Part shown: one piece after another, positions 1-20,744 of the stretch
Layout: each line of letters starts with the position of its first letter
Position numbering within the stretch: the stretch's first letter is position 1
Origin: Salinicoccus halitifaciens
Lineage (GTDB): Bacteria; Bacillota; Bacilli; Staphylococcales; Salinicoccaceae
Reading direction: 5' to 3'
Assembly (NCBI RefSeq): GCF_021026095.1
Contig: NZ_JAJNCU010000004.1
Span: 120,015 to 184,014 of the forward strand
DNA: 64,000 nucleotides
Notes under the pieces: model-generated
The model's database searches: none
Seen by the model: only the letters and a program-made list of their open reading frames with translations
What the model was told of the DNA's origin: nothing
Translations under genes and position numbers: made by a program

Positions 1-1419
1 TTCATGCTCTTTATCCCTCTCCATTTCATATTTGTCTTTCTTCATTATGAATAATCCTGCATAGCCGTAAATCAGACTGATGATGATGACCAAAAATGCA
101 TACCAGAAAAACGGCAGATAAGCAAGTGTTGCGACACCGAGTGTGGCTGCCATGAACACCCCGCCGTCGGACCACGGCACCATTGGAGTCGTGACTGTGC
201 CGCCGGCTTCAACGTTACGTGACAGCAGTGTACGGCTGACGCCCTGCCTGTTGTAATTCTCTTCTGTGATCTTGGTGCCTGTGAGCAGTGAAACGTATGC
301 CGCCCCGCCGAAGAATACGCCGAAGAATGATGCAAGCATCGTCGTGACCGTCAAGTTGCCTGTGCTTGTGGCCCATTTTGCGAATATATCCCCGATGACT
401 TTGAATGCACCAATCGTCTGCAGCAGACCACCGACGCCGAGCGCAAGGATAATCAGCAGTATGACGTCCAGCATGAATGTGATTCCGCCGCGGTCGAGCA
501 GGTTATCGATGAACTCGATGCCCGTCGAAACACCGCTTCCGGTATACATCGTCCCAAGTGCCTCGATAATGCCGTAGCCCTGGAACAAAGCTGCCCAGAT
601 GCTGCCGAGGAGCGCCCCGAAGATGATTACCGGCACCGATGGCAGTTTGAAAATGAGCATCGCCACGACTACAGCCGCCGGTATGAGCATGATCCAGGAA
701 ATATTGAATGTATCCTGCAGGTTCGCCATCGTATTTTCTGCAATCGTCAGATCCCCGCCGCCTTCCATGAGGAACATCCCGACCACCCAGTACAGTATGG
801 CCGCTATGATAAATGCCGGGAGCGATACGAATGCCATCGATTTGATGTGCCTGAATACATCGACATTCGAAAGCGAAGCCGTCATCACCGTCGTATCCGA
901 CAGCGGTGACATTTTATCCCCGACGTAACACCCGGACAATACGGCACCGGCGACCAGCGCGACCGGCAGTCCGAAGCTTTCGCCGATGCCCATCATCGCA
1001 ATCCCCGCCGTGCCGGCTGAACCGAATGATGTGCCCGTGGCCAGTGACGTGATTGCGCAGATGATCATCGCTGCCATCAGGAATATGCCCGGGCTGATGA
1101 TGCTTAGGCCGAAGTAGATCATCGTCGGCACCACACCGCCGGCGATCCACGAGCCGATGAGGGCCCCGACCGCAATCAGTATGAGTGTCGCACCCATCCC
1201 CTCATGGATGCCCTTCAACAGGCCGCGTTCCATCTCGAAATAAGAGTACTTCAGATAAATCCCGAACCCCATTATGACGAACCAGACCAGAAGAAGTGCC
1301 AGCTGGATCGGCAGTTCCAGGATCACTATTGAGCCAAACATCACCACAACGAATATAATCATGATTGCAATCAGCATCGTTACGCTGGGCAGTCTCTTTT
1401 CCACATTCATATTGTTCAT
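1..1419 (-). CDS. NhaC-family Na+/H+ antiporter-type transporter, 3' end cut by the window edge
   Basis: Polytopic membrane protein of the NhaC antiporter family. The 473 visible codons begin at ATG 1419 behind AAGGGGGAAAGAT. They contain repeated hydrophobic segments and the family-typical GSWIAGGVVPTMIYFG stretch; a paralogue lies at 18053-19519. NhaC proteins are usually 450-510 residues, so little is missing. The visible end is a charged cytoplasmic-looking tail rich in Lys and Glu. The gene follows 1441-2172 by 21 bases and is the last visible member of the leftward operon headed by the FAD oxidoreductase. Family knowledge: NhaC members exchange Na+ or H+ for each other or for organic acids. 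Inference: here it may import the imino-acid substrate or supply sodium homeostasis during its use. The true substrate cannot be read from sequence. Confidence 0.85.
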   Translation of the reverse strand, partial: MNNMNVEKRLPSVTMLIAIMIIFVVVMFGSIVILELPIQLALLLVWFVIMGFGIYLKYSYFEMERGLLKGIHEGMGATLILIAVGALIGSWIAGGVVPTMIYFGLSIISPGIFLMAAMIICAITSLATGTSFGSAGTAGIAMMGIGESFGLPVALVAGAVLSGCYVGDKMSPLSDTTVMTASLSNVDVFRHIKSMAFVSLPAFIIAAILYWVVGMFLMEGGGDLTIAENTMANLQDTFNISWIMLIPAAVVVAMLIFKLPSVPVIIFGALLGSIWAALFQGYGIIEALGTMYTGSGVSTGIEFIDNLLDRGGITFMLDVILLIILALGVGGLLQTIGAFKVIGDIFAKWATSTGNLTVTTMLASFFGVFFGGAAYVSLLTGTKITEENYNRQGVSRTLLSRNVEAGGTVTTPMVPWSDGGVFMAATLGVATLAYLPFFWYAFLVIIISLIYGYAGLFIMKKDKYEMERDKEHE

Positions 1420-1440
1420 ATCTTTCCCCCTTGTTTTCAT

Positions 1441-2172
1441 CTATCTAATGACAAACCCCTTCGAATATATATCAGAATCATCAATATAAAATTGAGAATT
1501 CGATATCAGAAAATGCCGGAATCGAAATCGATCCCCTTCAACCTTTACAAGACTTGAATTCAATGTCCTGATTTCCCTCTTGCCAAAGTGCCGGTTCAGG
1601 ACGGCAACCACTTCGCTCACGGGATATGCGATAATCATCTTCTCTTCATTGACGACTGCATGCATATCTTTATGCACCAATACTTTATAGCCTGAAAAAT
1701 CATTCATGGCCTCGACATGCGCCTTCACTGCAGCAATGTTCTCCACCGACAGTTCAAAATCGACCGCTTCAACAGCGACCCTCTTCCCGTTCACGTGATG
1801 GATATAGGTATCTTCTGTGACCTCGTGAATCACTTCATGACCGAGATCTTTATCTTCATAAATATACTCGGCATCTTTTTCATGTATATAGTACGCTTTA
1901 GCCCTATTGATGCTGCCCCGCTCAAGCAATGAACAGAGAAAACCCTTCAAAAGCATATCCTTGTTATCGATCACGGAGCTGGAATGCATTTCGACATTCA
2001 GCTCAGAATCATGGATGATCAGATTTACATATTTGCTGCCACGCGGTTCATTCAGCAGCAGGTCGACATTGTCATATCCCTCAACGGTACCTTGCAGCTC
2101 ATCCTTATGCACAATTCTGAGCAGCTGTCCGTTGATATGGATGTCATGGCTGTTGATCACTTTCCGAATCAC
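1441..2172 (-). CDS. Degenerate proline-racemase-like protein lacking both catalytic cysteines
   Basis: 243 residues from GTG 2172, preceded by AAGGGGGTGGAAAA. I do not recognise it as a named family, but it can be aligned by eye with the epimerase encoded just upstream: a His near residue 9 matches the THTGG start, NEPRG near residue 42 matches the PPRG motif, LLERG matches VELG, and the C-terminal GDRFRFRHFLIS plus IYSKGFVIR match GSRFRAKLLS and ITGSAWIMG. The two catalytic cysteine motifs (CGHDT and CGTGT in the neighbour) are replaced by Lys/Asn- and Ile/Ala-containing sequence. It is about 90 residues shorter than a normal racemase. The gene starts 12 bases after the epimerase stop, so they are probably co-translated. 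Inference: a pseudoenzyme, regulatory or assembly partner in the same pathway. The homology is my reading and not a search result. Confidence 0.6.
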   Translation of the reverse strand: MIRKVINSHDIHINGQLLRIVHKDELQGTVEGYDNVDLLLNEPRGSKYVNLIIHDSELNVEMHSSSVIDNKDMLLKGFLCSLLERGSINRAKAYYIHEKDAEYIYEDKDLGHEVIHEVTEDTYIHHVNGKRVAVEAVDFELSVENIAAVKAHVEAMNDFSGYKVLVHKDMHAVVNEEKMIIAYPVSEVVAVLNRHFGKREIRTLNSSLVKVEGDRFRFRHFLISNSQFYIDDSDIYSKGFVIR

Positions 2173-2184
2173 TTTTCCACCCCC

Positions 2185-3189
2185 TTATATTTCAGGTATC
2201 AGAAGATACCCCTCGTTCAGCGGATCGTCTTCGTGGTAATAAAAATCATGCCGGCCCATTATCCAGGCGGAACCCGTGATGGATATCCTGTTGAAGGAGA
2301 TGCCCGCCTCTTCCCTTGTGCTGAGCAGCTTCGCCCTGAACCGTGAACCCGTGATGCTTTCATGGATGAATTCTTCATCAGGTCCAAGCACACCGTCCTT
2401 ATGCAGGGTCGACACTTTGGCGCATGTCCCCGTGCCGCACGGCGAACGGTCGATGCCGCCCGGCGGCACGACGACGGCATTCCTGGTCACTTCACCCGGC
2501 TCATACAGTTCCATATGGGTCAGTTTGTCGATGAACGGGAATTCAGGGTGCTGTATTTCATGCTGCTCATTGATTGCATCCCGGAGCGCCATGGCGACCG
2601 AGACGATTTCCTCGGATGCATCGACATCAAGCTTGAGTCCGAGGTCCGCTGCATCGATGATGCCGTAGAAGTTGCCGCCGTAGGCGATATCGCATTTGAT
2701 GTCCTTCCTGTCCTTGTAATCGACATACACGGTCTTCAGATGAAACGCGTCCGTGCTGACGAAAGTCACCTCCTCGACCTTGCCGTCTGCCACCTTGCAT
2801 TCCGCTTCAACGACACCGGCCGGGGTATCCAGCACGACGGTGGTGTACGGCTCGGTCACTTCCACATAACCCAGCTCGACGAGTGCCGTGCACGTGCCGA
2901 TGGTGTCATGTCCGCACATCGGCAGATAGCCGCCGGTTTCTGCGAATATCACACTGAAATCCGTTCCCTCCTTCAAGGGAGGGAGCACAATCGTACTGCT
3001 CATCACATCATGACCCCGCGGCGGGTAGACGAGGAACTTCCGGATATGATCATGGTTCTCCTTCATATCGAGCATCTTTTCCTGAATCGTCTCCCCCTTC
3101 AATTCCGGCATGCCGGTGAGGACTGTCCGTGTCGGGTTGCCGCCCGTATGTGTATCGATGGTCAAAAACTGTTTTGAATGGATGTTCAT
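2185..3189 (-). CDS. Proline racemase / 4-hydroxyproline 2-epimerase family enzyme
   Basis: 334 residues, the normal length for the cofactor-independent proline racemase fold. Both catalytic cysteines are present: Cys92 in MCGHDTIG and Cys251 in DRSPCGTGT. A Cys pair is the mark of racemases and epimerases; trans-3-hydroxyproline dehydratases have Thr at the second site. It should invert C-alpha of proline or trans-4-hydroxy-L-proline to give the D (cis) isomer. ATG 3189 has AGGAGG eight bases upstream and overlaps the stop of the upstream FAD oxidoreductase gene (ATGA). The adjoining multi-subunit D-amino acid dehydrogenase genes favour 4-hydroxyproline epimerase, but proline racemase cannot be excluded from motifs alone. 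Confidence 0.88.
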   Translation of the reverse strand: MNIHSKQFLTIDTHTGGNPTRTVLTGMPELKGETIQEKMLDMKENHDHIRKFLVYPPRGHDVMSSTIVLPPLKEGTDFSVIFAETGGYLPMCGHDTIGTCTALVELGYVEVTEPYTTVVLDTPAGVVEAECKVADGKVEEVTFVSTDAFHLKTVYVDYKDRKDIKCDIAYGGNFYGIIDAADLGLKLDVDASEEIVSVAMALRDAINEQHEIQHPEFPFIDKLTHMELYEPGEVTRNAVVVPPGGIDRSPCGTGTCAKVSTLHKDGVLGPDEEFIHESITGSRFRAKLLSTREEAGISFNRISITGSAWIMGRHDFYYHEDDPLNEGYLLIPEI

Positions 3190-4361
3190 AAAGCTGCCTC
3201 CTTGAATCTCGACAGGCTGAGCGGACTGATGTCTTCGGTGAGCGAGCCGGTGACCATGTCACTCATCCATCTGCCGGTGATGGCGCTGAGCCCGATGCCG
3301 TCACCTTCATGCCCTGCCGCAATATAATAATTTCCGATATCCGTACCGGATATGATCGGCAGATGGTCGGGCGTCCACGGCCTGAGTCCGGCATAGGAGC
3401 GTATGATGTTCAAATCCTTCATCTTCGGAAAGTATTCGATCGCCCGTTGTGCAATCAGCCGGATGACGCGGGGATTCACCTTCGTATCGAAGCCGGTGAA
3501 TTCACGGCTGCTACCGATCAGGAAATTCTGGCTCTCCGTCGGTTCATGCACCAGGGCGATGCCGTAATCATTCATCGCTTCCGGGGCGACCCGCTCCCGC
3601 CCGAACTTCGTCATCAAATATCCAAACTCCTGAATTTTTCGTGTCCCCATCAGTTCCGTCCGTGATGCGACCAGTATATGGCCCTTCCTCGGCGTGATCG
3701 GCAGATCGATATCGAGCATCCTGCTGATTTCAGGGGCGTAAATGCCGCCTGCATTGATCACTTTATTCGCGGTGAAAGATTTTTCTCCGGAATATATTTT
3801 GAACGTTCCCCCATCCATCTTTTTAATATCGGTGACCGGTGAATGTTCATATAAAGTGAAATCGTACTTTTCCGCTTCATTGATCAGCGAGAATGTCAGC
3901 ATGTAGGGATTCACGGTCGAATCATTTGTACACTCGAGCCCGCCCGTCAGGTGATCGGAAAAATGTTTGGAGTCATTCTTCAGATCTTCTTTTGTGAGCT
4001 TGTTGAAGAACCGCTGCTCGCCGTTCGCCTGATTATGCCGGTCGACCCATATATAAGCCTGCTCCAGCTCCTCTTCATTCGCACAGAGGAAGATGCTGCC
4101 CGGATGCCTGAATTCGAACGGCATTTCAAGCTCTTCCGACAATTCCTTGATCAGCGCCTGGCTCTGGATTGCCATCCTGCTGTCGAAGCCCGGCTCCTTA
4201 TCTATCAGCAGGACATTGCCGTCGCACTTTGAAGTCGTGCCTGATGCGACCGTATGCTTTTCGATCATCCCTACATTCAACCCTTTTTTTGCGGTGTAAT
4301 AGGCGATGCTTGCACCGATGATGCCGCCGCCGATGATCATTACATCAAAATGACTGGTCAA
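3186..4361 (-). CDS. DadA-like FAD-dependent oxidoreductase (probable D-hydroxyproline/D-amino acid dehydrogenase catalytic subunit)
   Basis: 391-residue flavoprotein with the N-terminal dinucleotide-binding motif MIIGGGIIGASIAYY (Gly11, 13 and 16) and the C-terminal RPWTPDHLPIISG/GHEGDGIGLS segments typical of glycine oxidase, sarcosine oxidase beta and HcnC/OoxB proteins. Expected reaction: oxidation of a D-imino acid such as cis-4-hydroxy-D-proline, passing electrons to the Fe-S/flavin partner subunits encoded at 5918-7683. The start is TTG 4361 with AAAGGAGGG ten bases upstream; the next in-frame ATG would begin inside the Rossmann motif. It is the first gene of the leftward operon and has a sigma-54-like promoter at 4391-4406. 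Confidence 0.85.
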   Translation of the reverse strand: MTSHFDVMIIGGGIIGASIAYYTAKKGLNVGMIEKHTVASGTTSKCDGNVLLIDKEPGFDSRMAIQSQALIKELSEELEMPFEFRHPGSIFLCANEEELEQAYIWVDRHNQANGEQRFFNKLTKEDLKNDSKHFSDHLTGGLECTNDSTVNPYMLTFSLINEAEKYDFTLYEHSPVTDIKKMDGGTFKIYSGEKSFTANKVINAGGIYAPEISRMLDIDLPITPRKGHILVASRTELMGTRKIQEFGYLMTKFGRERVAPEAMNDYGIALVHEPTESQNFLIGSSREFTGFDTKVNPRVIRLIAQRAIEYFPKMKDLNIIRSYAGLRPWTPDHLPIISGTDIGNYYIAAGHEGDGIGLSAITGRWMSDMVTGSLTEDISPLSLSRFKEAAL

Positions 4362-4390
4362 TATGCCACTCCCTCCTTTAACTGTATATA

Positions 4391-4406
4391 AGAAATAAGC
4401 GTGCCA
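4391..4406 (-). promoter_or_regulatory. Sigma-54-like (-24/-12) promoter of the leftward operon
   Basis: On the minus strand the sequence reads TGGCACG, four bases, then TTTCT. The -24 box matches the sigma-54 consensus exactly. The -12 box differs from TTGCW at the G. A practically identical site (CTGGCACGYTTATTTCTTAT shared) lies in front of the rightward arm at 5865-5880. The predicted transcription start would be near 4380, just ahead of the AAAGGAGGG ribosome binding site. The activator encoded next door has the GAFTGA loop needed to act on sigma-54. Confidence 0.65.
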
Positions 4407-4434
4407 GCTTTAAACATGATGTTACTATTATCGT

Positions 4435-4463
4435 TTGTGATAAAGTGTAAAGAATCTTATAAT
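4435..4463 (+). promoter_or_regulatory. Sigma-A promoter of the activator gene
   Basis: TTGTGA at 4435-4440, a 17-base spacer and a perfect TATAAT at 4458-4463, 33 bases before the activator start codon. This suggests the enhancer-binding protein is made by the housekeeping polymerase while its targets use the sigma-54-like sites on either side. Confidence 0.65.
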
Positions 4464-4495
4464 CAGTATAATAAAGTTTACAGAAGGAGATGCCC

Positions 4496-5863
4496 ATGAT
4501 TGAAAAGAAAATGATTGAAGTCCTCATCAATTTTTACAACCATTCATTCACGATCATCGATAAAGACGAGAAACTGATTTACTGGAGCGACCGTGCATCC
4601 GAAATATTCAACCTGAAGCATGAAGATGTCATCGGGAAGGACATCAAGGAAGTGTTCTCGGAAGACCAGCTGCTCATACTGGAATCTTTACGGGATAACA
4701 AATCTTTCGAAAAGAAGCGGCATAAGGCCACCCCGGACATCTATGTGGACATCAAGGCGGAACCGGTCACTGTGGACGGGGAAGTCCTCGGCGCCGTCGT
4801 CTCCGAAGTGGACGTCACTTCGCAGATCAAAAGGGAAAAGGAGATGGAGGCACTCAAAAGCAAAGTCGATATTTTGAGCGATAACGTCAAGCAGTTGAAC
4901 AATGACAACCATTTCAAGAACATCATCTATAAGAGCTCCATCATGGAAAACTTGAAGAATCAGATCGAGAAAGCTGCGCGTACGGATGCAAACATCCTCA
5001 TCACCGGTGAAACCGGTGTCGGCAAGGAGCTGTTCGCCCAGGCGATACATAAGATCAGCGGGCTCCGGGGCGATATGATCCCGCTCAACTGCGGTGCGAT
5101 TCCGAATGAATTGTTCGAGTCGGAACTGTTCGGCTATGACAGGGGCGCCTTCACCGGCGCAAGCAAAGAAGGCAACAAGGGTAAAATCGAGCTTGCGGAG
5201 GACGGGACTTTATTCCTTGATGAAATCGGTGAGATGCCGCTCGAGATGCAGGTGAAATTCCTGCGCATACTGCAGGAAAGGAAATATTTCAAACTGGGCG
5301 GGAAGAAGGAGATGACGACGAACTTCAGGCTGGTGTCCGCCACCAATAAGAGGATCACCGAACTGCTGTCTTCCGACAACTTCCGTTCCGACCTGCTCTA
5401 CCGGATCAATGTCATCAACATCCACATCCCGCCGCTCAGAGAGAGGCCGGACGATATTGAATCACTGTTCTATTATTATCTGTTCCAGCTGTCCGAGAAG
5501 TACAATACCGACCTCATGTATGCAGACCAGGAACTGCTCCGGCAGATCAGGGAATATGAATGGCCGGGCAATGCACGCGAGCTCATCAATGTCGTCGAAC
5601 GGCTAGTGATATTCTCGAACGGCGGCACCCTTGATAACGATATCTTCCATCAATACCTGCAGGAAGTCGGACAGAGCCGGAACCTCACGGCCTACACCGT
5701 CCCTGCCGGTGATGTCGAATTGAAAGAGTATGTCGACAGGCTTGAAGCGGATTATATCCGGCAGGTCATTGAAAACAATGATCATAACATCGAAAAATCC
5801 GCTGCGGTGCTCGGCATCAGCCGCCCGACATTATACTCGAAGATCAAGAAATTCAAACTGTGA
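4496..5863 (+). CDS. Sigma-54-dependent enhancer-binding transcriptional activator with PAS sensor domain
   Basis: 455 residues. PAS-like sensor domain about 8-110, short coiled-coil linker about 111-140, AAA+ sigma-54 interaction domain about 142-370, C-terminal Fis-type helix-turn-helix about 415-455. Walker A GETGVGKE is at 171-178, the sigma-54 contact loop GAFTGA at 217-222, Walker B GTLFLDEIG at 237-245. A complete GAFTGA means it should truly drive sigma-54 polymerase rather than act as a TyrR-type sigma-70 regulator. ATG 4496 is chosen because AAGGAG lies seven bases upstream; ATG 4490 overlaps that site. It sits between two gene sets carrying matching sigma-54-like promoters and is presumably their activator, with a pathway intermediate as PAS or N-terminal ligand (inference). 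Confidence 0.92.
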   Translation: MIEKKMIEVLINFYNHSFTIIDKDEKLIYWSDRASEIFNLKHEDVIGKDIKEVFSEDQLLILESLRDNKSFEKKRHKATPDIYVDIKAEPVTVDGEVLGAVVSEVDVTSQIKREKEMEALKSKVDILSDNVKQLNNDNHFKNIIYKSSIMENLKNQIEKAARTDANILITGETGVGKELFAQAIHKISGLRGDMIPLNCGAIPNELFESELFGYDRGAFTGASKEGNKGKIELAEDGTLFLDEIGEMPLEMQVKFLRILQERKYFKLGGKKEMTTNFRLVSATNKRITELLSSDNFRSDLLYRINVINIHIPPLRERPDDIESLFYYYLFQLSEKYNTDLMYADQELLRQIREYEWPGNARELINVVERLVIFSNGGTLDNDIFHQYLQEVGQSRNLTAYTVPAGDVELKEYVDRLEADYIRQVIENNDHNIEKSAAVLGISRPTLYSKIKKFKL

Positions 5864-5864
5864 C

Positions 5865-5880
5865 TGGCACGTTTATTTCT
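5865..5880 (+). promoter_or_regulatory. Sigma-54-like (-24/-12) promoter of the rightward operon
   Basis: TGGCACG, four bases, TTTCT, beginning right after the activator stop codon and 38 bases before the first Fe-S gene. It differs from the site at 4391-4406 by one base over 20. Its -24 box is consensus and its -12 box carries the same T-for-G change. The independent recurrence at the head of both arms is the main evidence that it is functional. Confidence 0.65.
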
Positions 5881-5917
5881 TATTACTTGTTAAGATAAAT
5901 CATTTGAGGTGAAGGTC

Positions 5918-6193
5918 ATGGACAATAACGGGGATTTCGTCGTGTGCAGATGTGAAAATGTCACATATGCCGAGATGATGAAGGAAATGGAAAGAGGCGT
6001 GAACAATGCCAGGGAGATGAAATTGAAGACACGGGCCGGTATGGGATTCTGCAACGGCAGGACATGCGGGCACCTGATCAATAAAATGATGGATGAGACA
6101 GACAGCGGACCCGATTTCATCCATTTGAGGTCGCAGCCGCCGATCCGCACGATTTCTTTTGAAACGCTGGCAGGAGGTGCGCATGATGACTAG
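5918..6193 (+). CDS. BFD-like [2Fe-2S] protein, dehydrogenase complex subunit
   Basis: 91 residues with a four-cysteine bacterioferritin-associated-ferredoxin-like pattern: Cys10, Cys12, Cys45 and Cys50 (CRCENVT and GFCNGRTC). In heteromeric D-hydroxyproline dehydrogenase, opine oxidase and HcnB proteins this domain is usually fused to the C-terminus of the flavin/NAD subunit; here it is a separate gene. ATG 5918 follows GAGGTGA at good distance and is preferred over the GTG at 5909. The stop overlaps the start of the next gene. Likely role: electron relay between the two flavin subunits. Confidence 0.8.
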   Translation: MDNNGDFVVCRCENVTYAEMMKEMERGVNNAREMKLKTRAGMGFCNGRTCGHLINKMMDETDSGPDFIHLRSQPPIRTISFETLAGGAHDD

Positions 6194-6521
6194 AAGGATA
6201 CTGGACCATAAAATCCTCGGTCCGAGAAAAAATAAGATTGTGCCTTTTAAATGGAACGGGGAGACTTACTACGGGGCGGAAGGCGAAAGTATCACAGCCG
6301 CCCTCCTCGCCAATGATGTGCGGACACTCCGTCACCATGAAAGGGATGGGGCCCCGCGGGGCCTGTACTGCAACATCGGCCACTGCTCCGAATGCAGGGT
6401 GACCGTTGATGGTGCGCAAAATGTGCGCGCCTGCCTGACCCCTGTCCGTAAGGACATGGAAATCAGGCGGCAGGGCGCCCTGCCGCATCTCGTCAAAGGA
6501 GGCGGAGACGATGGATTATGA
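6183..6521 (+). CDS. [2Fe-2S] ferredoxin-fold small subunit (HcnA/OoxC-like)
   Basis: 112 residues with Cys63, Cys68, Cys71 and Cys84 in the plant-type ferredoxin spacing C-x4-C-x2-C-x12-C (GLYCNIGHCSEC then RAC). This matches the gamma subunit of heteromeric D-hydroxyproline dehydrogenases and the HcnA/OoxC families (sarcosine oxidase alpha N-terminal-like). AGGAGGTG lies five bases before ATG 6183. The gene overlaps the previous stop and the next start by 11 bases each, so the three rightward genes are tightly coupled. Confidence 0.85.
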   Translation: MMTRRILDHKILGPRKNKIVPFKWNGETYYGAEGESITAALLANDVRTLRHHERDGAPRGLYCNIGHCSECRVTVDGAQNVRACLTPVRKDMEIRRQGALPHLVKGGGDDGL

Positions 6522-7683
6522 TGTGATCATCATAGGCGCCGGGCCTGCAGGGCTCAGCGCCGCAGGTGTATTGAAGGATGATAAGCGCGTGCTCGTCATC
6601 GACGAATATTACCACCACGGCGGCCGGCTGCTCGGCCAGCTCTACGAGGAATCCAGGGGAAACTGGTGGAACGGCATGGAAATCGCCGATGAACTGTATG
6701 GCGGGCTTGAGGGTAAAGTCGAATTCAGCCTCGGCACCTCCGTCTACAATGCCGAGCGGGAGGGGTCTTTATTCACCATATATACGGATAAAGGCAATTT
6801 CACGGCCCGGTGCCTCGTCGCCGCGACCGGTTCCAAAGAAAACTCCTCCCCGCTGCCCGGATGGGAACTGCCCGGGGTCATGACCGTCGGGGCGGCCCAG
6901 GTGCTCACCAATTTCCACCGGGTCGCACCCGGCGAAGCCGGGGTCATCATCGGCATCAATCCCCTCTCCATGGTGATCGCCATGGAGCTCGGCTATGCAG
7001 ATGTGGAAGTGAAGAAGATATGCCTGCCTGCGGCAAATGACATCAATACGGCAACACCGAAAGATGCGTTGGAAACGCTGATGGGCCTCAGCCGGTCTGC
7101 CCCTTCGAAATTTTTAGCTTTCGCAGGCGGCGTCGGCCGAAGACTCACGCTGCTGCACGGTCCTGTGCTGAATTTCTTCCCTTCTGGCGGGGTGAGGACG
7201 CTCGGCCTCCCGATCTCCATCAAGGAAAGAGTCGTCCGCATCAATGGGACGGATCAGGTCGAGTCCGTCACCACCATTAAGACGAGAGCCGACGGCAGCG
7301 TGATTGAAGGGACGGAGCAAGAGATTGTCTGTGACTTTGTCTGTATTTCCGACGGCCTCTCGCCGGTCAATGAAATTACTTCGCTGTTCAATCTGAAGCA
7401 TGTATACCTTGAGTCCCTCGGCGGGTACGTGCCCCTCCACAGCGAGAAGATGGAGACCGAAATCGAGGGCCTTTATGTCGCCGGCAACATCACCGGCATT
7501 GAAAACGCCAAAGTCGCGATGCTCCAGGGAGAGATGGCCGCCCACCGGATTCTGGGAGATGAGGCAGCATCTGAAGACACTTTGAGGAAGATCAACGAAG
7601 AACGTAAAAACGCCAAGGTGAAATTCCATGAAGACCTGGATGCAGGCCGGGAAAAACTCCAGCTCTACTGGCTCGCGAAATGA
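6511..7683 (+). CDS. FAD/NAD(P)-binding oxidoreductase subunit (HcnB/OoxA-like)
   Basis: 390 residues with the N-terminal FAD motif YDVIIIGAGPAGLSAAG and a second nucleotide-binding fold. The C-terminal GLYVAGNITGIENAKVAMLQG segment is typical of pyridine nucleotide-disulphide oxidoreductases. It is shorter than HcnB (about 460) because the BFD-like Fe-S domain is encoded separately at 5918-6193. Together with 5918, 6183 and the FAD subunit at 3186-4361 it would form a four-component D-hydroxyproline or D-amino acid dehydrogenase, probably membrane-peripheral and feeding the respiratory chain (inference). Start ATG 6511 follows AAGGAGG inside the previous gene. Confidence 0.85.
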   Translation: MDYDVIIIGAGPAGLSAAGVLKDDKRVLVIDEYYHHGGRLLGQLYEESRGNWWNGMEIADELYGGLEGKVEFSLGTSVYNAEREGSLFTIYTDKGNFTARCLVAATGSKENSSPLPGWELPGVMTVGAAQVLTNFHRVAPGEAGVIIGINPLSMVIAMELGYADVEVKKICLPAANDINTATPKDALETLMGLSRSAPSKFLAFAGGVGRRLTLLHGPVLNFFPSGGVRTLGLPISIKERVVRINGTDQVESVTTIKTRADGSVIEGTEQEIVCDFVCISDGLSPVNEITSLFNLKHVYLESLGGYVPLHSEKMETEIEGLYVAGNITGIENAKVAMLQGEMAAHRILGDEAASEDTLRKINEERKNAKVKFHEDLDAGREKLQLYWLAK

Positions 7684-8171
7684 TGAGAGACCGTATTGGA
7701 GTCAGTCCGGACAGGATTTGAAATAGTGAGGTGCCCGCCCAGATGCGGGATTGAAATCCGGACGGAATCTGAGGTCTGGAGACCGCTGTCTGGATTCGTG
7801 ACTGAACTCCGGACAGAACTTGATGCACAGCGACCGCCATCTGGATTCAAGAGCAAAATCCGGACGGACCCTGATGCGCAGAGACCGCTGTCTGGATTCA
7901 AAAGCAAAATCCGGACGGACCCTGATGCGCAGAGACCGCTGTCTGGATCCAGCACCAATATCCAGACAGAGCCGTAAGTACGGAGAGGACCGTCTGAATC
8001 CGGGACCAATATCCAGACGGAACCTGATGTGCAGAGACCGCTGTCTGGATCCAGCACCAATATCCGGACAGAACGTGAAGTCCGACGACCGCTGTCCGAA
8101 TCCGGGACCAATATCCGGACAGAGCCTGAAATACAGCGGCCGCCGTCCGAACCTGGCACTCCCATCCAGAC
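7684..8171. repeat. Tandem array of about ten 51-bp hairpin repeats
   Basis: About 490 bases without a credible gene, made of degenerate units with a 51-bp period. For example CCGGACGGAC recurs at 7860 and 7911, inside two nearly identical units. Each unit carries GACCGCTGTCTGGATT, a short loop and ATCCGGAC. The GTCTGGATT and AATCCGGAC arms pair with one G:U, so every unit can fold into a hairpin. Outer units are more diverged than the central pair, as in arrays growing by slippage or unequal exchange. The array lies between the oxidoreductase gene and the IS, and no other terminator is visible after 7683, so it may end transcription (inference). Confidence 0.8.
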
Positions 8172-8176
8172 TCCTC

Positions 8177-9859
8177 TCAAATCAAAATAAAAGGGGCTGG
8201 GACATAAAGCCCTTTGAAAACTAAGAAAAGTGGCGATTCATCGATTAATTCGGATGAATCGCCACTTTTTCCATATTTCTGCAGACGGTCCGCCTGAATC
8301 TGCCGGAATTTCCGCAGGTTCAAGGCGAGTAACGCAAGCCCGGTTTCGATTTTGACCTTGCGTGCACCCCGGACCGAGAAGCGTTTGAACGCCAAATTCG
8401 CCTTCAAATTGCCGAAAACCGTTTCAATATCTATCTTCCTCTGCTGATAGATTGTCCGGTTCTCTTTCATTGAAAGCGTGCGTCGGGCCTGGGCTTTGAA
8501 ATACTCCAGGTTCATATTCTTTTGGATCCGTTTGTTGATTTGTTGATCGCTCTGGATGCACTTTTCATACAACGGGCATCCGCTGCAGTCTGCGGATGCA
8601 TACATTTTGAATGACCGGGTGTAACCGTATTTGTCTGTCCGATCAGCGTACCGGTCAAACCGGATCTCCCGCCCGTCCGGACAAATGTACAGATCATTTT
8701 CAGCGTCATATGCCCAGTTGGCAGGGTGCATCTCATCCGTCCGGTGTTTTTTCTTCTGCTCCCTGTAGTACGTGTTGTAGGGAATGAGCGCCGTCCGTTC
8801 ATAGTCATCCATGATCATTTCATAGTTGGCCTCGCTGCCATAGCCGGCATCGGCGACGATCTTTTCCGGCAGGTGATGAAACGTCTCCATCATCGTATGC
8901 AGGAACAGTTTCAATGTCCGGGTATCTGTTGGATTCGGATAAAGATCAAATCCTAAAACGAACTGATTGTTACTTGCGACCTGCAGGTTGTAGCCGGCTT
9001 TCAGCTGCCCGTTGCGCATGTGGTCTTCCTTCATGCGCATGAAGGTCGCATCCGGGTCGGTTTTCGAGTAGCTGTTCCGTTCGCCGAGAATCTCCAACTG
9101 CTGGGTATATTTCAGCTCGCGGTCCCGCAGGTCCGCGCATTTCTTTTTGGTTTCTCGAATGATTGACCGTTCCGACCGGATGGCCTTTCTGTCCGGCACA
9201 TCTTCAGTCGCCTCAATCGCCTCTGTCAAATCATTCTCCACTGTTTCCAATGCCTGATGCATGGTGTTCAGATGCTCGGCTGTAACCAGGTCCTCCGATT
9301 CTTCAAGCAGTGCCGGGAGGATCTGTGCTTCGTACATCGTGTCATACATCAGTTTTGATTGCGCCCGCAGCTTCTCCTGATGTTTCTCCACGCTCTTCCT
9401 GAAGACGAATGTGTACTTGTTGGCATTGGCTTCCAGTTTCGTGCCGTCGATGAAAATCGCATCCGCATCAATCAAATCATTGGCCTGCAGCTGGCCCCTG
9501 AATTGGATGAAAGCCTCTTCGATGAGCACGCTCATATGAGGATGGACCCTGAACCGGTTGATGGTGCGATAGGAGGGTTTCTGATTTTGCGCAAGCCACA
9601 TCATCCGCAGACTGTCAGTGAGTTCGGCTGCGATTTTACGGCCGGAGTACACGGACCGGGTGTACCCGCACAGGATGATCTTCATCATCATTCTTGGGTG
9701 ATGGGAGGACGCGCCGAAGTGATGCTCGAATCCTTCGAATGCCGCATCCGGGATGCTTTCCACCATGTCATTCACCGCTACGGCGATGTCATCTTCTGGA
9801 ATCATCACTTCGATATCCTATGGAATTGTGATCTGGTTCATGTTATAATCTTTATACAT
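8177..9859 (-). pseudogene. IS1182-family transposase with amber codon at position 14
   Basis: The likely authentic start is ATG 9859, preceded by AAGAGGTGCCTT. The reading frame runs MYKDYNMNQITIP, then TAG at 9818-9820, then continues in frame as DIEVMIPEDD with 543 further open codons from GTG 9808. The body is typical of IS1182/IS1272 DDE transposases (GYTRSVYSGRK, SYRTINRFRVHP, FIDGTKLEANANKYTFV, ETVFGNLKANLAFKRF). The reading frame passes through the left inverted repeat, and its stop codon lies 11 bases outside the element. Restart at GTG 9808 or ATG 9805 could still yield an active protein, but no good ribosome binding site precedes those codons, so I call it a probable pseudogene. 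Confidence 0.75.
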
Positions 9860-10013
9860 AAGGCACCTCTTTTTTGTTTGTGTGGTTACTTACATTATAA
9901 GAGAGTGTCTTTGTTTTGTCTTATATTTATATATAAGAATGTCCCCGGATTAAAATTCACATTTTAATCCGGGGACATTTGGTTTCAGCCGGGATTTATG
10001 TCCCAGCCCCTTT
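8190..10013. mobile_element. IS1182-family insertion sequence
   Basis: 1824-bp element bounded by perfect 19-bp inverted repeats, AAAGGGGCTGGGACATAAA at 8190-8208 and its complement at 9995-10013. It encodes one leftward transposase. Two long subterminal hairpins are visible: 8228-8268 (15-bp arms AAGTGGCGATTCATC) inside the 3' end of the transposase gene, and 9946-9982 (arms TGTCCCCGGATTAAAA) upstream of it, which could block read-in transcription. I see no clear target duplication. Family knowledge: IS1272-like members of this family often insert at hairpins, so part of the terminal repeat might be target sequence. The right end touches the stop codon of the XRE regulator gene. Confidence 0.85.
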
Positions 10014-10531
10014 CATGTCACATTGGAAGATACGAGGAGGATCTTCGCCGGTTCGTCGCTATCGTTATACCACTCGTGCTCCACTTTTGAGTCGATGTGG
10101 ATCGAGTCGCCCGGTCCCAGGACAGTCTGCTCGCCCTGAATGATGACCTGCAGTGTCCCGCTGAGCACATAGATGAATTCCTGCCCCCTGTGGGTATATG
10201 GCGAGTGCTGTGTCTCCCCCGCCTTCAATTCCACGAGTGCCGGGGTGAATAAAGGATTCTCTATATCCCCGGACAAGTCCTCGTATGAAAAATTGCCGTT
10301 CAGTGACGCGGTGTCCACCGGGTCTTTCTGGTTATCATCAAAGAAGAAATTGACATTGACGTCGAGTGCTTCTGATATTTTTTTCAATGATGTGAAAGTC
10401 AGTGTCCTCAAGTCGCGTTCGACCTGGGATAAGAAGCTGATGGACAACCCGCTTTCGGCGCTCAGCTCCTTCAACGTCATCTTCCTGCCTTTTCTTAATT
10501 TCTTCAGTTCACTTCCCAGTGTCTCACTCAT
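10013..10531 (-). CDS. XRE-family transcriptional regulator with C-terminal cupin domain (PuuR-like)
   Basis: 172 residues: helix-turn-helix about 8-62 (LKELSAESGLSISFLSQVE) and a cupin sensor domain about 100-172 (ELKAGETQHSPYTHRGQEFIYVLSG). This architecture belongs to PuuR/YdcN-type regulators of amine or amino acid catabolism. It starts 17 bases after the aldehyde dehydrogenase stop, so the two form an operon. That fits autoregulated control, perhaps through the palindrome at 12122-12142 (inference). The last base of its TGA stop is the outermost base of the IS terminal repeat, so the original C-terminus may have been a few residues longer. Confidence 0.88.
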   Translation of the reverse strand: MSETLGSELKKLRKGRKMTLKELSAESGLSISFLSQVERDLRTLTFTSLKKISEALDVNVNFFFDDNQKDPVDTASLNGNFSYEDLSGDIENPLFTPALVELKAGETQHSPYTHRGQEFIYVLSGTLQVIIQGEQTVLGPGDSIHIDSKVEHEWYNDSDEPAKILLVSSNVT

Positions 10532-10548: not shown

Positions 10549-12036
10549 TTATGATCTGTGCATATTGACGAACACACTCTTCACTTCCACATAGTTTGCG
10601 ATGCCGTAGTCCCCGCCCATATCGCGGCCGATGCCGGATTGCTTGTAGCCGCCGAACGGCATGGTCTCGAGCTCGAGTCCGAAATCGTTGATCCATACTG
10701 TGCCGGCTTCCAGTTTCGATGCGATATAGTGGCCGTCTTTGATGTTCTCGGTCCAGACGCTTGAAGCAAGGCCGTAGTCACTGTCATTCGCCCTTTTGAT
10801 CGCTTCATCAATATCATCGAACGGCATGACGCACATTACTGGTCCGAATATCTCTTCCCTCGCGATCGCCATATCATCGGTGACATCCGTGAATATCGTC
10901 GGCTCGACAAAATACCCCTTATCTCCGATGCGGCTGCCGCCGGTGATCACTTTCGCGCCGGCTTCTCTGCCCTCCTCGATATATCCAAGGACTTTATTCA
11001 TCTGCTTCTCTGAGATCAACGGGCCGATATCGGTGTTTTCGTCGAGACCGTCGCCAACGACCAGATCCTCCGCCCGCTTCTTCAGCTCCTCGACCACCTT
11101 ATCATAGATTCCCCGCTGCACATATACCCTTGTCGTCGCACTGCAGTTCTGGCCGGAGTTGTACATCGTTCCGTCGAAGATCCCGTCAAGCCCTGAATCA
11201 AGATCGGCATCTGCCAGTACGATCGCCGGTGATTTTCCGCCGAGCTCCAACGTGATGGACTTGATGTCTTCAGCGGCATGCTTCATGATTTCACGGCCGG
11301 TGTTCGTCGATCCTGTGAACGCCACTTTCGATACGTCCTTATGGGTGACGAGCGAGTGGCCCGCGACCGAACCCTGGCCCGGTACGATGTTGACCACACC
11401 GTCGGGGAAGCCCGCTTCTTTGAAGAGTTTCGCTGCATAAAGGATGGATAACGGCGTATCCTCGGCAGGCTTCAGCACAATCGTACAGCCTGCAGCAAGC
11501 GCTGCGCCCATCTTCCATGCGGCCATCAGAAGCGGATAGTTCCACGGCACGATCTGCGCCACGACGCCGACCGGCTCATGTACGGTGTACGTCACATAAT
11601 TCGGGTCGACGTTCGTCGTCTTGCCGAAGATCTTCGTCGCCCATCCTGCATAATATCTGAAATGGGTGACCGTGCCGTCCACATCATCTTCCAGTGCCTG
11701 CATATATTTCTTTCCGTTATCCAGTGCTTCCAGCTGCGCAAGTTCTTCCCGGTGCGCCTCAAGCAGGTCGGCGAACTTATAGATCAGTTCAGACCTTGAC
11801 GCCGCATCCATCTTCGTCCATTCCCCATTGTCGAACGCCTCTTTTGCGGCACGCACCGCCTTGTCGATGTCTTTTTCAGTCGCTTCACTGACAGTCGCGA
11901 TCACTTCTTCGGTCGCCGGGTTTTTGACTTCGAACGTATTGCCGCTCTCCGAAGGCACATACTCCCCGTTGATATACAGCCCCTTCTCCTGCTCCAAAAA
12001 CTCTTTTACTCCAGGTTTCAATTCCATCAATGACAT
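10549..12036 (-). CDS. NAD(P)-dependent aldehyde dehydrogenase
   Basis: 495 residues, normal for the superfamily. VPWNYPLLMAAWKMGAALAAG and FTGSTNTGR bind the nucleotide, ELGGKSP holds the general-base Glu and NSGQNCSA the catalytic Cys. It oxidises an aldehyde to a carboxylate; sequence resembles the DhaS/betaine-aldehyde/gamma-aminobutyraldehyde dehydrogenase branch. The PuuR-like regulator downstream favours an amine-derived aldehyde. An alternative is 2-oxoglutarate semialdehyde from the hydroxyproline pathway. ATG 12036 follows AAGGAGTGGGATGGG and is preferred over a TTG 48 bases upstream that lacks a ribosome binding site. Confidence 0.88.
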   Translation of the reverse strand: MSLMELKPGVKEFLEQEKGLYINGEYVPSESGNTFEVKNPATEEVIATVSEATEKDIDKAVRAAKEAFDNGEWTKMDAASRSELIYKFADLLEAHREELAQLEALDNGKKYMQALEDDVDGTVTHFRYYAGWATKIFGKTTNVDPNYVTYTVHEPVGVVAQIVPWNYPLLMAAWKMGAALAAGCTIVLKPAEDTPLSILYAAKLFKEAGFPDGVVNIVPGQGSVAGHSLVTHKDVSKVAFTGSTNTGREIMKHAAEDIKSITLELGGKSPAIVLADADLDSGLDGIFDGTMYNSGQNCSATTRVYVQRGIYDKVVEELKKRAEDLVVGDGLDENTDIGPLISEKQMNKVLGYIEEGREAGAKVITGGSRIGDKGYFVEPTIFTDVTDDMAIAREEIFGPVMCVMPFDDIDEAIKRANDSDYGLASSVWTENIKDGHYIASKLEAGTVWINDFGLELETMPFGGYKQSGIGRDMGGDYGIANYVEVKSVFVNMHRS

Positions 12037-12088
12037 CCCATCCCACTCCTTGTTTTGATATGTAATGACTAAATCTTCTGTCAACTAA

Positions 12089-18052: not shown

Positions 18053-19519
18053 ATGGACAAAAAGCCGCTTTTTGAACATAAGACCAAAAAGGAGTTCAAT
18101 TTTTTCCTGGCCATCACACCGCTTGTGGTGATGATTGCATCGATGCTGTACGCCATCGTGGTGCTTGAGACCGACCCCCATCTGCCTTTGATCATCGGTA
18201 CCATCACTGCCGCACTCGTCGCCGTATTTTCCGGCTTTAAATGGGTTGATATCGAGGAGATGATGTATAAGGGGATCCGTCTCGCCCTCCCGGCGGTCGT
18301 CATCCTGATGATCGTCGGCCTCATCATCGGATCATGGATCAGCGGCGGTGTCGTCGCCTCGATGATCTATTACGGTCTGATGGTGATCAGTCCCCAGTAT
18401 TTCCTTGTCACGATATGCGTCATCTGTGCCATCGTCTCTCTTGCGATAGGCAGTTCATGGTCGACAATGGCGACCATCGGCGTCGCCGGCATGGGCATCG
18501 GGATAAGCATGGATATCAATGCCGCCATGATAGCGGGTGCGGTCATCTCCGGCTCATATTTCGGGGATAAGATGTCCCCGCTGTCGGATACGACGAACCT
18601 CGCTGCAGGATTGACGAACACGGACCTTTTCGAGCATATCCGACATATGATGTACACCACCATACCGGGACTCATCGTGGCACTCACCGCGTATTTCATC
18701 ATCGGCATCAACATCATCGGCGGCTCGACCGCCTCACCTGAAGATATTCAGGCGATGATGTCCGGCATGAGCGAAAATTTCGTCATCAGCCCCTGGCTGC
18801 TGATCGTCCCTGCTCTCGTCATCGTCTTCATAATAATGAAGATGAAAGCGGTGCCGGCGCTTATCACCGGTGTGGTGCTCGGGGTGATATGCACCATCTT
18901 CATCCAGGGAGATACGCTTGCGGATGCCGCTTCGACGTTGATGAACGGCTATGTGCTCGAGTCGGGCAATGAGATGGTGGACACGCTGTTCAACCGGGGC
19001 GGCCTGATGGATATGATGTATACGATCGCTTTGACGATCGCCGCCCTGACTTTTGCCGGGATACTCGAATATTCAGGGATGCTCCGTGCCATCATGCATC
19101 AGATCCTTAAAATCGCCAAAGGCACATTCGGCATCATCACGGCAACGATCCTGTCCTGCTTCACGACGAACGTCACATGTTCTGAGCAGTATATCTCGAT
19201 CGTCGTGCCCTCAAGGATGTACTTAAGGGCTTATATCGACAATAAACTCCATTCTAAAAACTTGTCCCGTTCACTTGAAGACGGCGGCACGCTGACTTCC
19301 GTCTTCGTCCCATGGAATACATGCGGCGTCTTCATCTACGGCACACTCGGCGTCGTCGCATGGGAGTATGCACCTTTTGCAATCCTGAACTTCACCGTTC
19401 CAATCATCGCCATCATACTGGCAGCCACCGGATTCGGCATCACCAGAGTCTCGGCGGAGGAACGCGATGCTTATATCGCCAAACATTATCCGGAGGAGAA
19501 TAAGACTGCAGAAGCATGA
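18053..19519 (+). CDS. NhaC-family Na+/H+ antiporter
   Basis: 488 residues with about 11-12 hydrophobic segments. Family motifs include GSWISGGVVASMIYYGL, GSSWSTMATIGVAG and GSYFGDKMSPLSDTTNLA, the last two typical of NhaC. It exchanges Na+ (or a carboxylate) against H+ across the cytoplasmic membrane. ATG 18053 with AAAGGGACGATGTC upstream is preferred to the ATG 48 bases earlier, which would overlap the promoter. Compared with the paralogue at 1-1419 it is monocistronic, and its promoter carries a candidate cre site. Confidence 0.88.
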   Translation: MDKKPLFEHKTKKEFNFFLAITPLVVMIASMLYAIVVLETDPHLPLIIGTITAALVAVFSGFKWVDIEEMMYKGIRLALPAVVILMIVGLIIGSWISGGVVASMIYYGLMVISPQYFLVTICVICAIVSLAIGSSWSTMATIGVAGMGIGISMDINAAMIAGAVISGSYFGDKMSPLSDTTNLAAGLTNTDLFEHIRHMMYTTIPGLIVALTAYFIIGINIIGGSTASPEDIQAMMSGMSENFVISPWLLIVPALVIVFIIMKMKAVPALITGVVLGVICTIFIQGDTLADAASTLMNGYVLESGNEMVDTLFNRGGLMDMMYTIALTIAALTFAGILEYSGMLRAIMHQILKIAKGTFGIITATILSCFTTNVTCSEQYISIVVPSRMYLRAYIDNKLHSKNLSRSLEDGGTLTSVFVPWNTCGVFIYGTLGVVAWEYAPFAILNFTVPIIAIILAATGFGITRVSAEERDAYIAKHYPEENKTAEA

Positions 19520-19520
19520 A

Positions 19521-19670
19521 GGGTCTGGGACATAAGTCCTTAAAAAATTATAAATTGAATGAAGGAGACGAAAAATCCGTACGTTTGACTCCCAGGGGAA
19601 CAGCATCTGCGCAAGACTACAGGCTTGCGCGATGCCCCCGGGAAAGCAAACATACGGATTCATTTTTTTC
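19521..19670. repeat. IS-end-like sequence followed by a nested 87-base palindrome, MITE-like
   Basis: GGGTCTGGGACATAAGTCC at 19521-19539 resembles the inner end of the IS1182 element at 8190. About 35 bases on, 19574-19660 folds as nested inverted repeats: outer arms AATCCGTACGTTTG and CAAACATACGGATT, middle CTCCCAGGGG and CCCCCGGG, inner GCATCTGCGCAAG and CTTGCGCGATGC. A run of seven T follows, so it can also terminate the NhaC transcript. I recall similar nested palindromes scattered between genes in Bacillales, but copy number here is unknown. Confidence 0.65.
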
Positions 19671-19700
19671 ATATAAAGTTCTGTACCAGTTCCTTTGCGA

Positions 19701-20744
19701 TCAGTCGTCCTGTTCCACGTCGAGCACTTCACCGGTCGCGGCATTGATTTCAACTTCGTACTCACGGCCGTCGTAGTCGATTTCAAAATCGTATTCGCTG
19801 TCTTCCTTATCCAGTTCCCATTCTTTCACCGTGCCGCCGCCTGCAGCATCGATTGCGATGCCGGCCGCTTCTTCAGATGAAATGAAGTCTCCGTCCACTT
19901 CGATGTTATTCGTGTACTCACCGCCGGCTTTATTTTCCTGGTCGATCTTCTTCACTTCACCGGTCGTTGCATTGATTTCAACTTCATACTTGGAGCCGTC
20001 CTTCATGACGTCGATTTCGTACTCATTGTCGTCCCTGTCGAACTCCTTCTCATGCACTTCACCGCCGCCGGTTTTATCTGTGGCGATCTTTACTGCTTCG
20101 TCCATGCCGATGAACCCGGAATCAGAGGCTGAACCGGTACTTGAAGACTGTCCGCCTGATTGCTTTTCAACATCCACTTTCTCCACTTCGCCGGTCGTTG
20201 CATTGATTTCAACTTCATGCTTGGAACCGTCCTTTACAACGTCGATTTCGTACTCATTGTCGTCCCTGTCGAATTCCTTCTCATGCACTTCACCGCCGCC
20301 TGCTTCATCCTTGGCGATCCTCACCGCTTCATCCATCCCGATGAACCCGGAATCTGCAGGTGTCACATTTTCCGTGCTGCCGGCTTTGTCATCCCCATCA
20401 TCACGGTCGGTCTCTTCTTCAATGATGCTCAAATCCTCTGCATTGATCTTGATGTCATATTCATCTTCGCCGTCTTCCATTTCAATCTCATAATAATGCA
20501 CGCCGTCATCTTCATCCAGTTCAACTTCAACGACGACACCTTCGAAACGCTCGCCCGCCAGGTCGACTGCATCCTGCACGGAATAACCGAGTTCTGATGT
20601 TTCCCCGCTTTTGACTTCAACCGTCCCTTCACGGTTCTCATCTTCCCAGTCCATATCATCCGAGGCACTCGCTGTCGAACAGGCACCGAGCACCAGCGCT
20701 GCGGATAAGCTGCCTGCAAGTAATGTGTTTTTGTAGAATTTCAT
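19701..20744 (-). CDS. Acidic lipoprotein with four PepSY domains
   Basis: 347 residues. Signal peptide with lipobox LGAC, lipidated Cys22, so anchored outside the membrane. Four PepSY domains follow at about 53-115, 132-193, 209-270 and 283-345, each ending in a KVEINATTGEV-like strand. Domains 2 and 3 are nearly identical over about 55 residues and at DNA level recur 231 bp (77 codons) apart, a recent internal duplication. Very rich in Asp and Glu. PepSY domains act as protease inhibitors or sensor modules in other proteins; the role here is unknown. AAGGAGGAG precedes ATG 20744. Three 11-bp-spaced TTTAA repeats lie upstream. Confidence 0.85.
   Translation of the reverse strand: MKFYKNTLLAGSLSAALVLGACSTASASDDMDWEDENREGTVEVKSGETSELGYSVQDAVDLAGERFEGVVVEVELDEDDGVHYYEIEMEDGEDEYDIKINAEDLSIIEEETDRDDGDDKAGSTENVTPADSGFIGMDEAVRIAKDEAGGGEVHEKEFDRDDNEYEIDVVKDGSKHEVEINATTGEVEKVDVEKQSGGQSSSTGSASDSGFIGMDEAVKIATDKTGGGEVHEKEFDRDDNEYEIDVMKDGSKYEVEINATTGEVKKIDQENKAGGEYTNNIEVDGDFISSEEAAGIAIDAAGGGTVKEWELDKEDSEYDFEIDYDGREYEVEINAATGEVLDVEQDD

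Follow-up and report, generated by a model that had tools for sequence, protein, structure and literature searches.

A sox/hydroxyproline-type locus of Salinicoccus halitifaciens with twin variant -24/-12 elements and a divergent RpoN encoded nearby

Known systems

The sox locus of Bacillus thuringiensis HD73, which serves sarcosine utilisation, has mapped σ54 promoters on both sides of SoxR, with a shared upstream binding site (PMC4941409, PMC4428206). The locus of Salinicoccus halitifaciens described here shares with it, on one side, genes for DAO, proline racemase, a protein of unknown function, a DapA-like protein and aldehyde dehydrogenase, on the other side the small and alpha subunits, and between opposing σ54 promoters (predicted ones here) a PAS activator gene that does not itself have a -24/-12 promoter. 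A sox-type layout, in the sense of an activator flanked by opposing σ54 units that hold the DAO, racemase and subunit genes, is present in full. (What this means operationally is that lists of genes, and not sequences, have been compared with B. thuringiensis.) The B. thuringiensis promoters are of the canonical TTGCA type (TTGGCATGATTTTTGCA and TTGGCACGTCAATTGCA) and use the general SigL, whereas those of S. halitifaciens read TTTCTT and rpoN is part of the cassette.

Specialised RpoNs with activators of their own are known from C. sphaeroides (Cereibacter/Rhodobacter), whose RpoN1, RpoN2 and RpoN3 discriminate at position -11 (PMC11999139). A specialised RpoN paired to an activator, and discrimination close to the -12 element (inferred in the present case), are features shared with the S. 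halitifaciens locus. In C. sphaeroides the discrimination is among paralogues in one genome, whereas here the substitution falls on the G of the GC; moreover, unlike those paralogues, the cassette RpoN is the only full-length RpoN found per genome of the family. PrdR-type σ54 activators provide the best NCBIfam match of the S. halitifaciens activator (472.6 bits, under the family cut-off of 795), and their gene neighbourhood differs from the cassette's. TTGGCATNNNNNTTGCT has been used in a survey of Clostridiales (PMC6615313). RpoN in S. halodurans is mentioned, and proposed as important for heat tolerance, in PMC4685198. No description of a TTTC-type -12 box or of a dedicated RpoN in the family was found in the open-access literature searched. 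The layout is already known from B. thuringiensis; the dedicated RpoN and the fixed -12 change are likely to be new.

The twin elements and the genes that they face

The window (the whole stretch of DNA analysed) is 64,000 nucleotides long, and Table 1 lists its features. Two exact copies of the 20-mer CTGGCACGYTTATTTCTTAT, with 0 mismatches and in opposite orientations, flank the activator gene, the right-hand copy starting immediately 3' of the activator stop codon. The number of copies expected by chance is 0 (100 shuffles), and a chance origin of the pair is ruled out. In both arms the -24 element TGGCAC is unaltered and the spacing is standard (N5 between TGGCAY and TTTCTT), but the second box is TTTCT in place of the canonical TTGCW. 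(The numbering of the GC varies by author, as -14/-13 or -13/-12.) The twin elements are a variant of the canonical σ54 promoter, which satisfies it in the -24 element and the spacing and fails it in the GC of the -12 box.

Table 1. Features at the activator locus, in window coordinates; promoters are predictions
Feature	Position	Strand	Remark
Putative NhaC-type antiporter	1..1420	-	truncated by window edge
Conserved 243-aa protein, unknown function	1441..2172	-	same place in relatives
Proline racemase family (hydroxyproline 2-epimerase-like)	2185..3189	-	
FAD-dependent D-amino acid/hydroxyproline-type dehydrogenase (DAO)	3186..4361	-	
Left-arm variant -24/-12 promoter CTGGCACGCTTATTTCTTAT	4388..4407	-	faces DAO gene; conserved in relatives
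σA-like promoter of activator, TTGTGA-17-TATAAT	4435..4463	+	10/12 matches
TGTAAA...TTTACA inverted repeat	4446..4482	.	surrounds activator -10 box
PAS-AAA+-Fis HTH σ54 activator with GAFTGA	4490..5863	+	start probably 4496
Right-arm variant -24/-12 promoter CTGGCACGTTTATTTCTTAT	5864..5883	+	faces BFD gene; conserved in relatives
BFD-like [2Fe-2S] protein	5918..6193	+	
Fer2_4 [2Fe-2S] protein	6183..6521	+	
FAD/NAD oxidoreductase (sox alpha/HcnB-like)	6511..7683	+	
Putative XRE-cupin-type regulator	10013..10531	-	adjoins aldehyde dehydrogenase in relatives as well
Aldehyde dehydrogenase (2-oxoglutarate semialdehyde dehydrogenase-like)	10549..12084	-	no family above its cut-off

The activator carries ELFGYDRGAFTGA and is made up of PAS, AAA+ and Fis-type HTH domains; an AAA+ domain with a GAFTGA loop, together with an HTH, qualifies it as a σ54 activator (bEBP). 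To judge from RBS spacing, translation probably begins at the second ATG of the frame. Of 20 relatives aligned, all have the TATAAT of its own promoter and 19 have TTTG-N20-TATAAT (the partly unreadable activator L079 was omitted from the intergenic alignment, as it was from the activator tree). The inverted repeat around the -10 box may possibly be a binding site of the activator, but this is inference only. The first-pass annotation, made from the sequence alone, had claimed twin near-identical motifs with a perfect -24 box and TTTCT in the -12 position, and between them a GAFTGA activator with its own σA promoter. Both claims held: the motifs are exact 20-mers, the loop is intact and the σA promoter is found. 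The genome also has a second PAS-AAA+ activator (contig C5, L061:7562-8941), with a degenerate version of the GAFTGA loop (ELFGREDGTGSVRKALFE) and without any -24/-12-type site found in its vicinity.

The left arm faces the DAO, proline-racemase-family, 243-aa and NhaC genes, in that order, and past the window edge two DapA-like genes and what we take, on sequence motifs, to be a TRAP transporter. (The names of the putative NhaC-type antiporter and of the putative XRE-cupin-type regulator likewise rest on sequence motifs.) The right arm faces the genes for the BFD, Fer2_4 and FAD/NAD subunits. This gene set suits the conversion of hydroxyproline by way of D-hydroxyproline to 2-oxoglutarate. 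No NCBIfam enzyme model matches the cassette above its own cut-off, and the 243-aa protein has no Pfam match. A catabolic cassette of the sox/hydroxyproline type, with hydroxyproline as substrate, is the likely identity of the locus, as inferred from gene content.

Several further features of the neighbourhood deserve mention. A 51-bp unit is repeated about 7 times in an array (window 7756-8129) between the right-arm genes and a 543-aa ORF at 8177-9808 (-), which resembles an IS1182-type transposase. This ORF lies between the right-arm genes and the XRE/aldehyde dehydrogenase pair, neighbours in relatives. The two DapA-like genes (L002:14969-15847 and 19064-19867 (-)) are near-identical and bracket the TRAP transporter genes, and the cassette of Oceanobacillus jeddahense (L226) shares this duplication.

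The resident RpoN

Absence of rpoN, which would have refuted the first-pass annotation, is rejected: a search of the genome (2.68 Mb in 11 contigs, 99.75% complete) found one full-length rpoN, at L002:10728-11918, which is 8.1 kb beyond the left edge of the window, with 12.6 kb between it and the activator. Its product contains the core-binding (CBD) and DNA-binding (DBD) domains of Pfam and its best PDB matches are σ54 structures. It is also divergent. The NCBIfam rpoN_sigma score is 172.4 bits (cut-off 277.35), the Pfam activator-interacting domain (AID, region I) finds no match, though the region can be aligned by eye, and a score of 92 bits is the lowest of any full-length match in a class sample of 151 genomes (the next is 111).

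Within the family, rpoN is present in 19 of 33 genomes (6 genera), and strong activator genes (PF00158 match at E <= 1e-30) are present in exactly the same 19. Each of these genomes has one GAFTGA activator, on a common contig with rpoN and about 3-13 kb from it in 16/19, and on a separate contig in the other 3. The claim of a σ54 circuit is supported by this co-occurrence and by the proximity of rpoN to the locus. Five of the 19 genomes have a second activator, with a loop that is degenerate in three (L034, L082, L083) and reads GAFMGA in two (L062, L063); it is conceivable that the GAFMGA activators of these 2/19 genomes also use the cassette RpoN.

At four Jeotgalicoccus loci (L128, L130, L131, L134) the right-arm genes are followed, on the same strand, by rpoN, and from this gene order it is inferred that its own promoter may drive it. 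In two relatives (L235, L236) rpoN has a TGGCAY-N5-TTTCTT site of its own at a distance of 84-87 bases upstream, which points to self-activation. In the window's genome no such promoter was seen for rpoN.

Conservation and distribution of the variant promoter

Thirty-seven of the 38 arms beside GAFTGA activators are readable, and all 37, in three genera, have TGGCAY-N5-TTTCTT, with T in place of the canonical G in the -12 box. The search pattern held TGG[CT]A and TT.C constant and left open the -13 base and the two positions that follow the C, all of which are T in every readable arm. The arm promoters are invariant at 11 positions. (The arms of close relatives are partly identical, as in L070 and L071, and the 37 arms are not independent cases.)

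This bears on the possibility that the circuit is decaying and its rpoN a drifting relic. The long stem branch of the RpoN tree, the weak family scores and the lack of an AID match speak for decay. Against it, dN/dS is 0.12-0.21 across six RpoN pairs, which shows selection maintaining rpoN; no stop codons were found in the matched rpoN frames of the family genomes; and the promoters are invariant to the extent just stated. Decay is very unlikely.

A second possibility is that the twin motif is a binding site of the activator or of another regulator and that transcription starts elsewhere. Its one support is that the transcription start at the locus is unmapped. Against it, the motif lies at a fixed short distance upstream of gene starts in relatives, matches the -24 box, and is never present at both arms in rpoN-less genomes of the family; mapped σ54 starts are at the same places in the homologous B. 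thuringiensis locus; and a σA scan of the region gives no site over either 20-mer. This alternative, too, has very little to recommend it.

Use of the promoter elsewhere is restricted. The window's own genome has three TGGCAY-N5-TTTCTT sites, the two arms and one within a 612-aa ORF. The looser TGGCANNNNNNTTNC occurs 56 times against 84 for the reversed control, so that the loose form by itself proves nothing, and wide use of the motif across the genome is rejected. The 19 rpoN genomes together have 70 exact sites (reversed control, 32), and the 14 rpoN-less genomes of the family have 17 (reversed control, 42). The 33 sites outside the arms in the rpoN genomes, a number at about the reversed-control level, were all examined: 25 are within ORFs, 3 lie ahead of a proline-racemase-family gene and 2 ahead of rpoN, and 3 (L229, L237, L240) have no clear role. 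Two of the three racemase sites (L233, L234) had appeared intragenic because the ORF list extends to the first possible start codon; that assignment is rejected, both being just upstream of the real start.

Individual sites may be noted in their own right. At L228, L233 and L234, all outside the main locus, a TTTCTT-type site is just upstream of a second gene of the proline racemase family, which at L228 is truncated. The site at L229:2470 (-) has a spacer identical to that of the window's right arm, and 194 bases downstream of it comes a 386-aa ORF that has no Pfam match. Among the 25 sites within ORFs, one (L336) also has a different ORF 116 bases downstream of it; a site identical to it is present in an rpoN-less genome.

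Residues that read the -12 box

In cryo-EM structures, H377, S379 and R383 of σ54 read the conserved GC and R455/R456 read CTGGC (PMC9770992). Alignment to the K. pneumoniae-type σ54 chain 7qv9_M places S310, A312 and R316 of the cassette RpoN at positions 377, 379 and 383. All 21 cassette RpoNs have S377, A379 and R383 (that is, H377S and S379A, with R383 unchanged); R455 and R456, which read the -24 element, are intact in 21/21, as is the RpoN box SRRTVNKYK. The RpoNs outside the cassette that were read number 116, of which the class sample supplied 110, the order 3, Oceanobacillus 2 (both SigL) and Marinitoga 1. All 116 keep S379, R383 and the RR pair of the RpoN box, and 110 keep H377. (Of 83 class RpoN matches without a locus 80 were fetched, and 12 that failed the frame filter were read separately.) E378P was considered as a hallmark and dropped, since P or V is found at this position in other RpoNs too.

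The remaining 6 of these 116 lack H377. Two of the six, encoded by the ordinary-type rpoN genes L114 and L115 from another family of the same order, have N/S at 377 and a TTGC-type site about 30 bases downstream of the gene, which means that H377S is not by itself a sufficient explanation for the change of the box. The cassette RpoNs form one divergent clade, comprising three genera of the family plus Oceanobacillus; the match of residues with promoters is confined to this one evolutionary branch and so counts as one event, not 21. (The wide RpoN tree omitted the near-duplicate L200 and the misread row L206; L206 is included in the residue count.) It also remains possible that the divergent region I, the one without a Pfam AID match, is instead the cause of the changed box.

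The lineage-specific -12 preference of RpoN that the first-pass annotation had suggested is supported by the uniformity of the 37 arms and by the change of two of the three GC-reading residues.

The cassette beside ordinary SigL in Oceanobacillus

A contig scan found 18 loci of the cassette RpoN type, 16 in Salinicoccus, Lacicoccus and Jeotgalicoccus and 2 in Oceanobacillus. (The scan used two short peptide patterns and misses relatives that lack them.) The Oceanobacillus hosts are O. oncorhynchi and O. jeddahense, and both genomes also encode an ordinary SigL. Both species have the twin promoters, and in O. jeddahense the gene order around the activator is that of the window. Within 6 kb of activators in the two genomes (<=6 kb), TGGCAY-N5-TTKCW sites comprise 17 of TTGC and 5 of TTTC type; four of the latter are cassette arms and the fifth is not. 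Elsewhere in these genomes the corresponding numbers are 19 and 28.

In a tree of cassette RpoNs only, Oceanobacillus groups with the window's genus on modest support (82/79, midpoint root). The activator tree places it beside the same genus, with a value of 98 by SH-aLRT alone and with long-branch warnings; the wider RpoN tree has a long stem branch and a warning that long branches meet. The cassette RpoN clade has likely crossed between the family and Oceanobacillus, in a direction that is unresolved. The first-pass annotation had offered retention in a side branch or transfer with the pathway, and each has some support, the former in the extension of the RpoN clade through three genera of the family and the latter in this crossing. 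Its suggestion that Staphylococcus proper lacks rpoN can be set beside strong rpoN matches in 3/117 genomes of the order outside the family, a count that does not single out Staphylococcus by name.

The principal alternative to an altered preference is that these are ordinary σ54 promoters with a tolerated weak -12 box, in which the T only lowers basal activity. The -24 box is perfect, and R383, a main GC contact, is unchanged, which counts against an altered preference; it is also the case that strength varies among σ54 promoters in general. Against tolerance, TTTCTT is too fixed for a tolerated deviation (all readable arms, three genera), two GC-reading residues are altered in the same clade, and the sites by other Oceanobacillus activators are mostly TTGC. 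A tolerated weak box is therefore unlikely. We consider it very probable that the twin elements are promoters of the resident RpoN and that altered preference is the likeliest cause of the changed box. This is a joint claim; promoter activity and preference are inferred, without transcription-start, binding or mutant data.

Proposed mechanism and implications

Under the altered-preference reading, a PAS-sensing activator would be made from its σA promoter, bind upstream DNA and open the two flanking σ54 promoters, the leftward one driving the DAO, epimerase, NhaC and deaminase genes and the rightward one the iron-sulphur and FAD subunits. The σ54 would be the divergent RpoN encoded in the same neighbourhood, which would recognize the -24 element in the standard way and, by its changed helix-turn-helix, read TTTCTT rather than TTGCW. 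It would serve the cassette locus and, in some relatives, also a second racemase-family gene or rpoN itself. The sequences, their conservation, their co-occurrence and the residue changes are shown; promoter activity, altered preference, the activator binding site and the substrate are inferred. The best reading, and a very likely one, is that of a sox/hydroxyproline-type locus that brings a σ54 of altered -12 preference, one nearly confined to this single locus (transcription starts, promoter discrimination and substrate being inferred).

A bolder reading can be entertained, in which the cassette is a self-contained transferable unit whose RpoN helix-turn-helix has rewritten the -12 GC to TC (through S379A with H377S), serves, besides its own expression, hardly more than a single catabolic locus, and coexists with SigL without cross-talk because the two sigmas read different -12 boxes. 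For this joint claim the balance of evidence, all of it indirect, is only slightly favourable, discrimination being inferred. That ordinary SigL cannot read TTTCT is no more than a possibility, without direct evidence.

The GC of the -12 element is regarded as a hallmark of σ54 promoters, and here a whole clade has T for G. The clade can be thought of as a natural experiment on change of σ54 specificity, in which the -12 box and two of three GC contacts have changed while the -24 box and its arginines have not. Searches based on TTGC would miss promoters of the TTTCTT type. The two Oceanobacillus genomes place two kinds of σ54 in one cell, and their separation is directly testable. For Salinicoccus itself, the analysis suggests a narrower role of RpoN than the one put forward in S. 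halodurans, that of a heat-tolerance regulon (PMC4685198).
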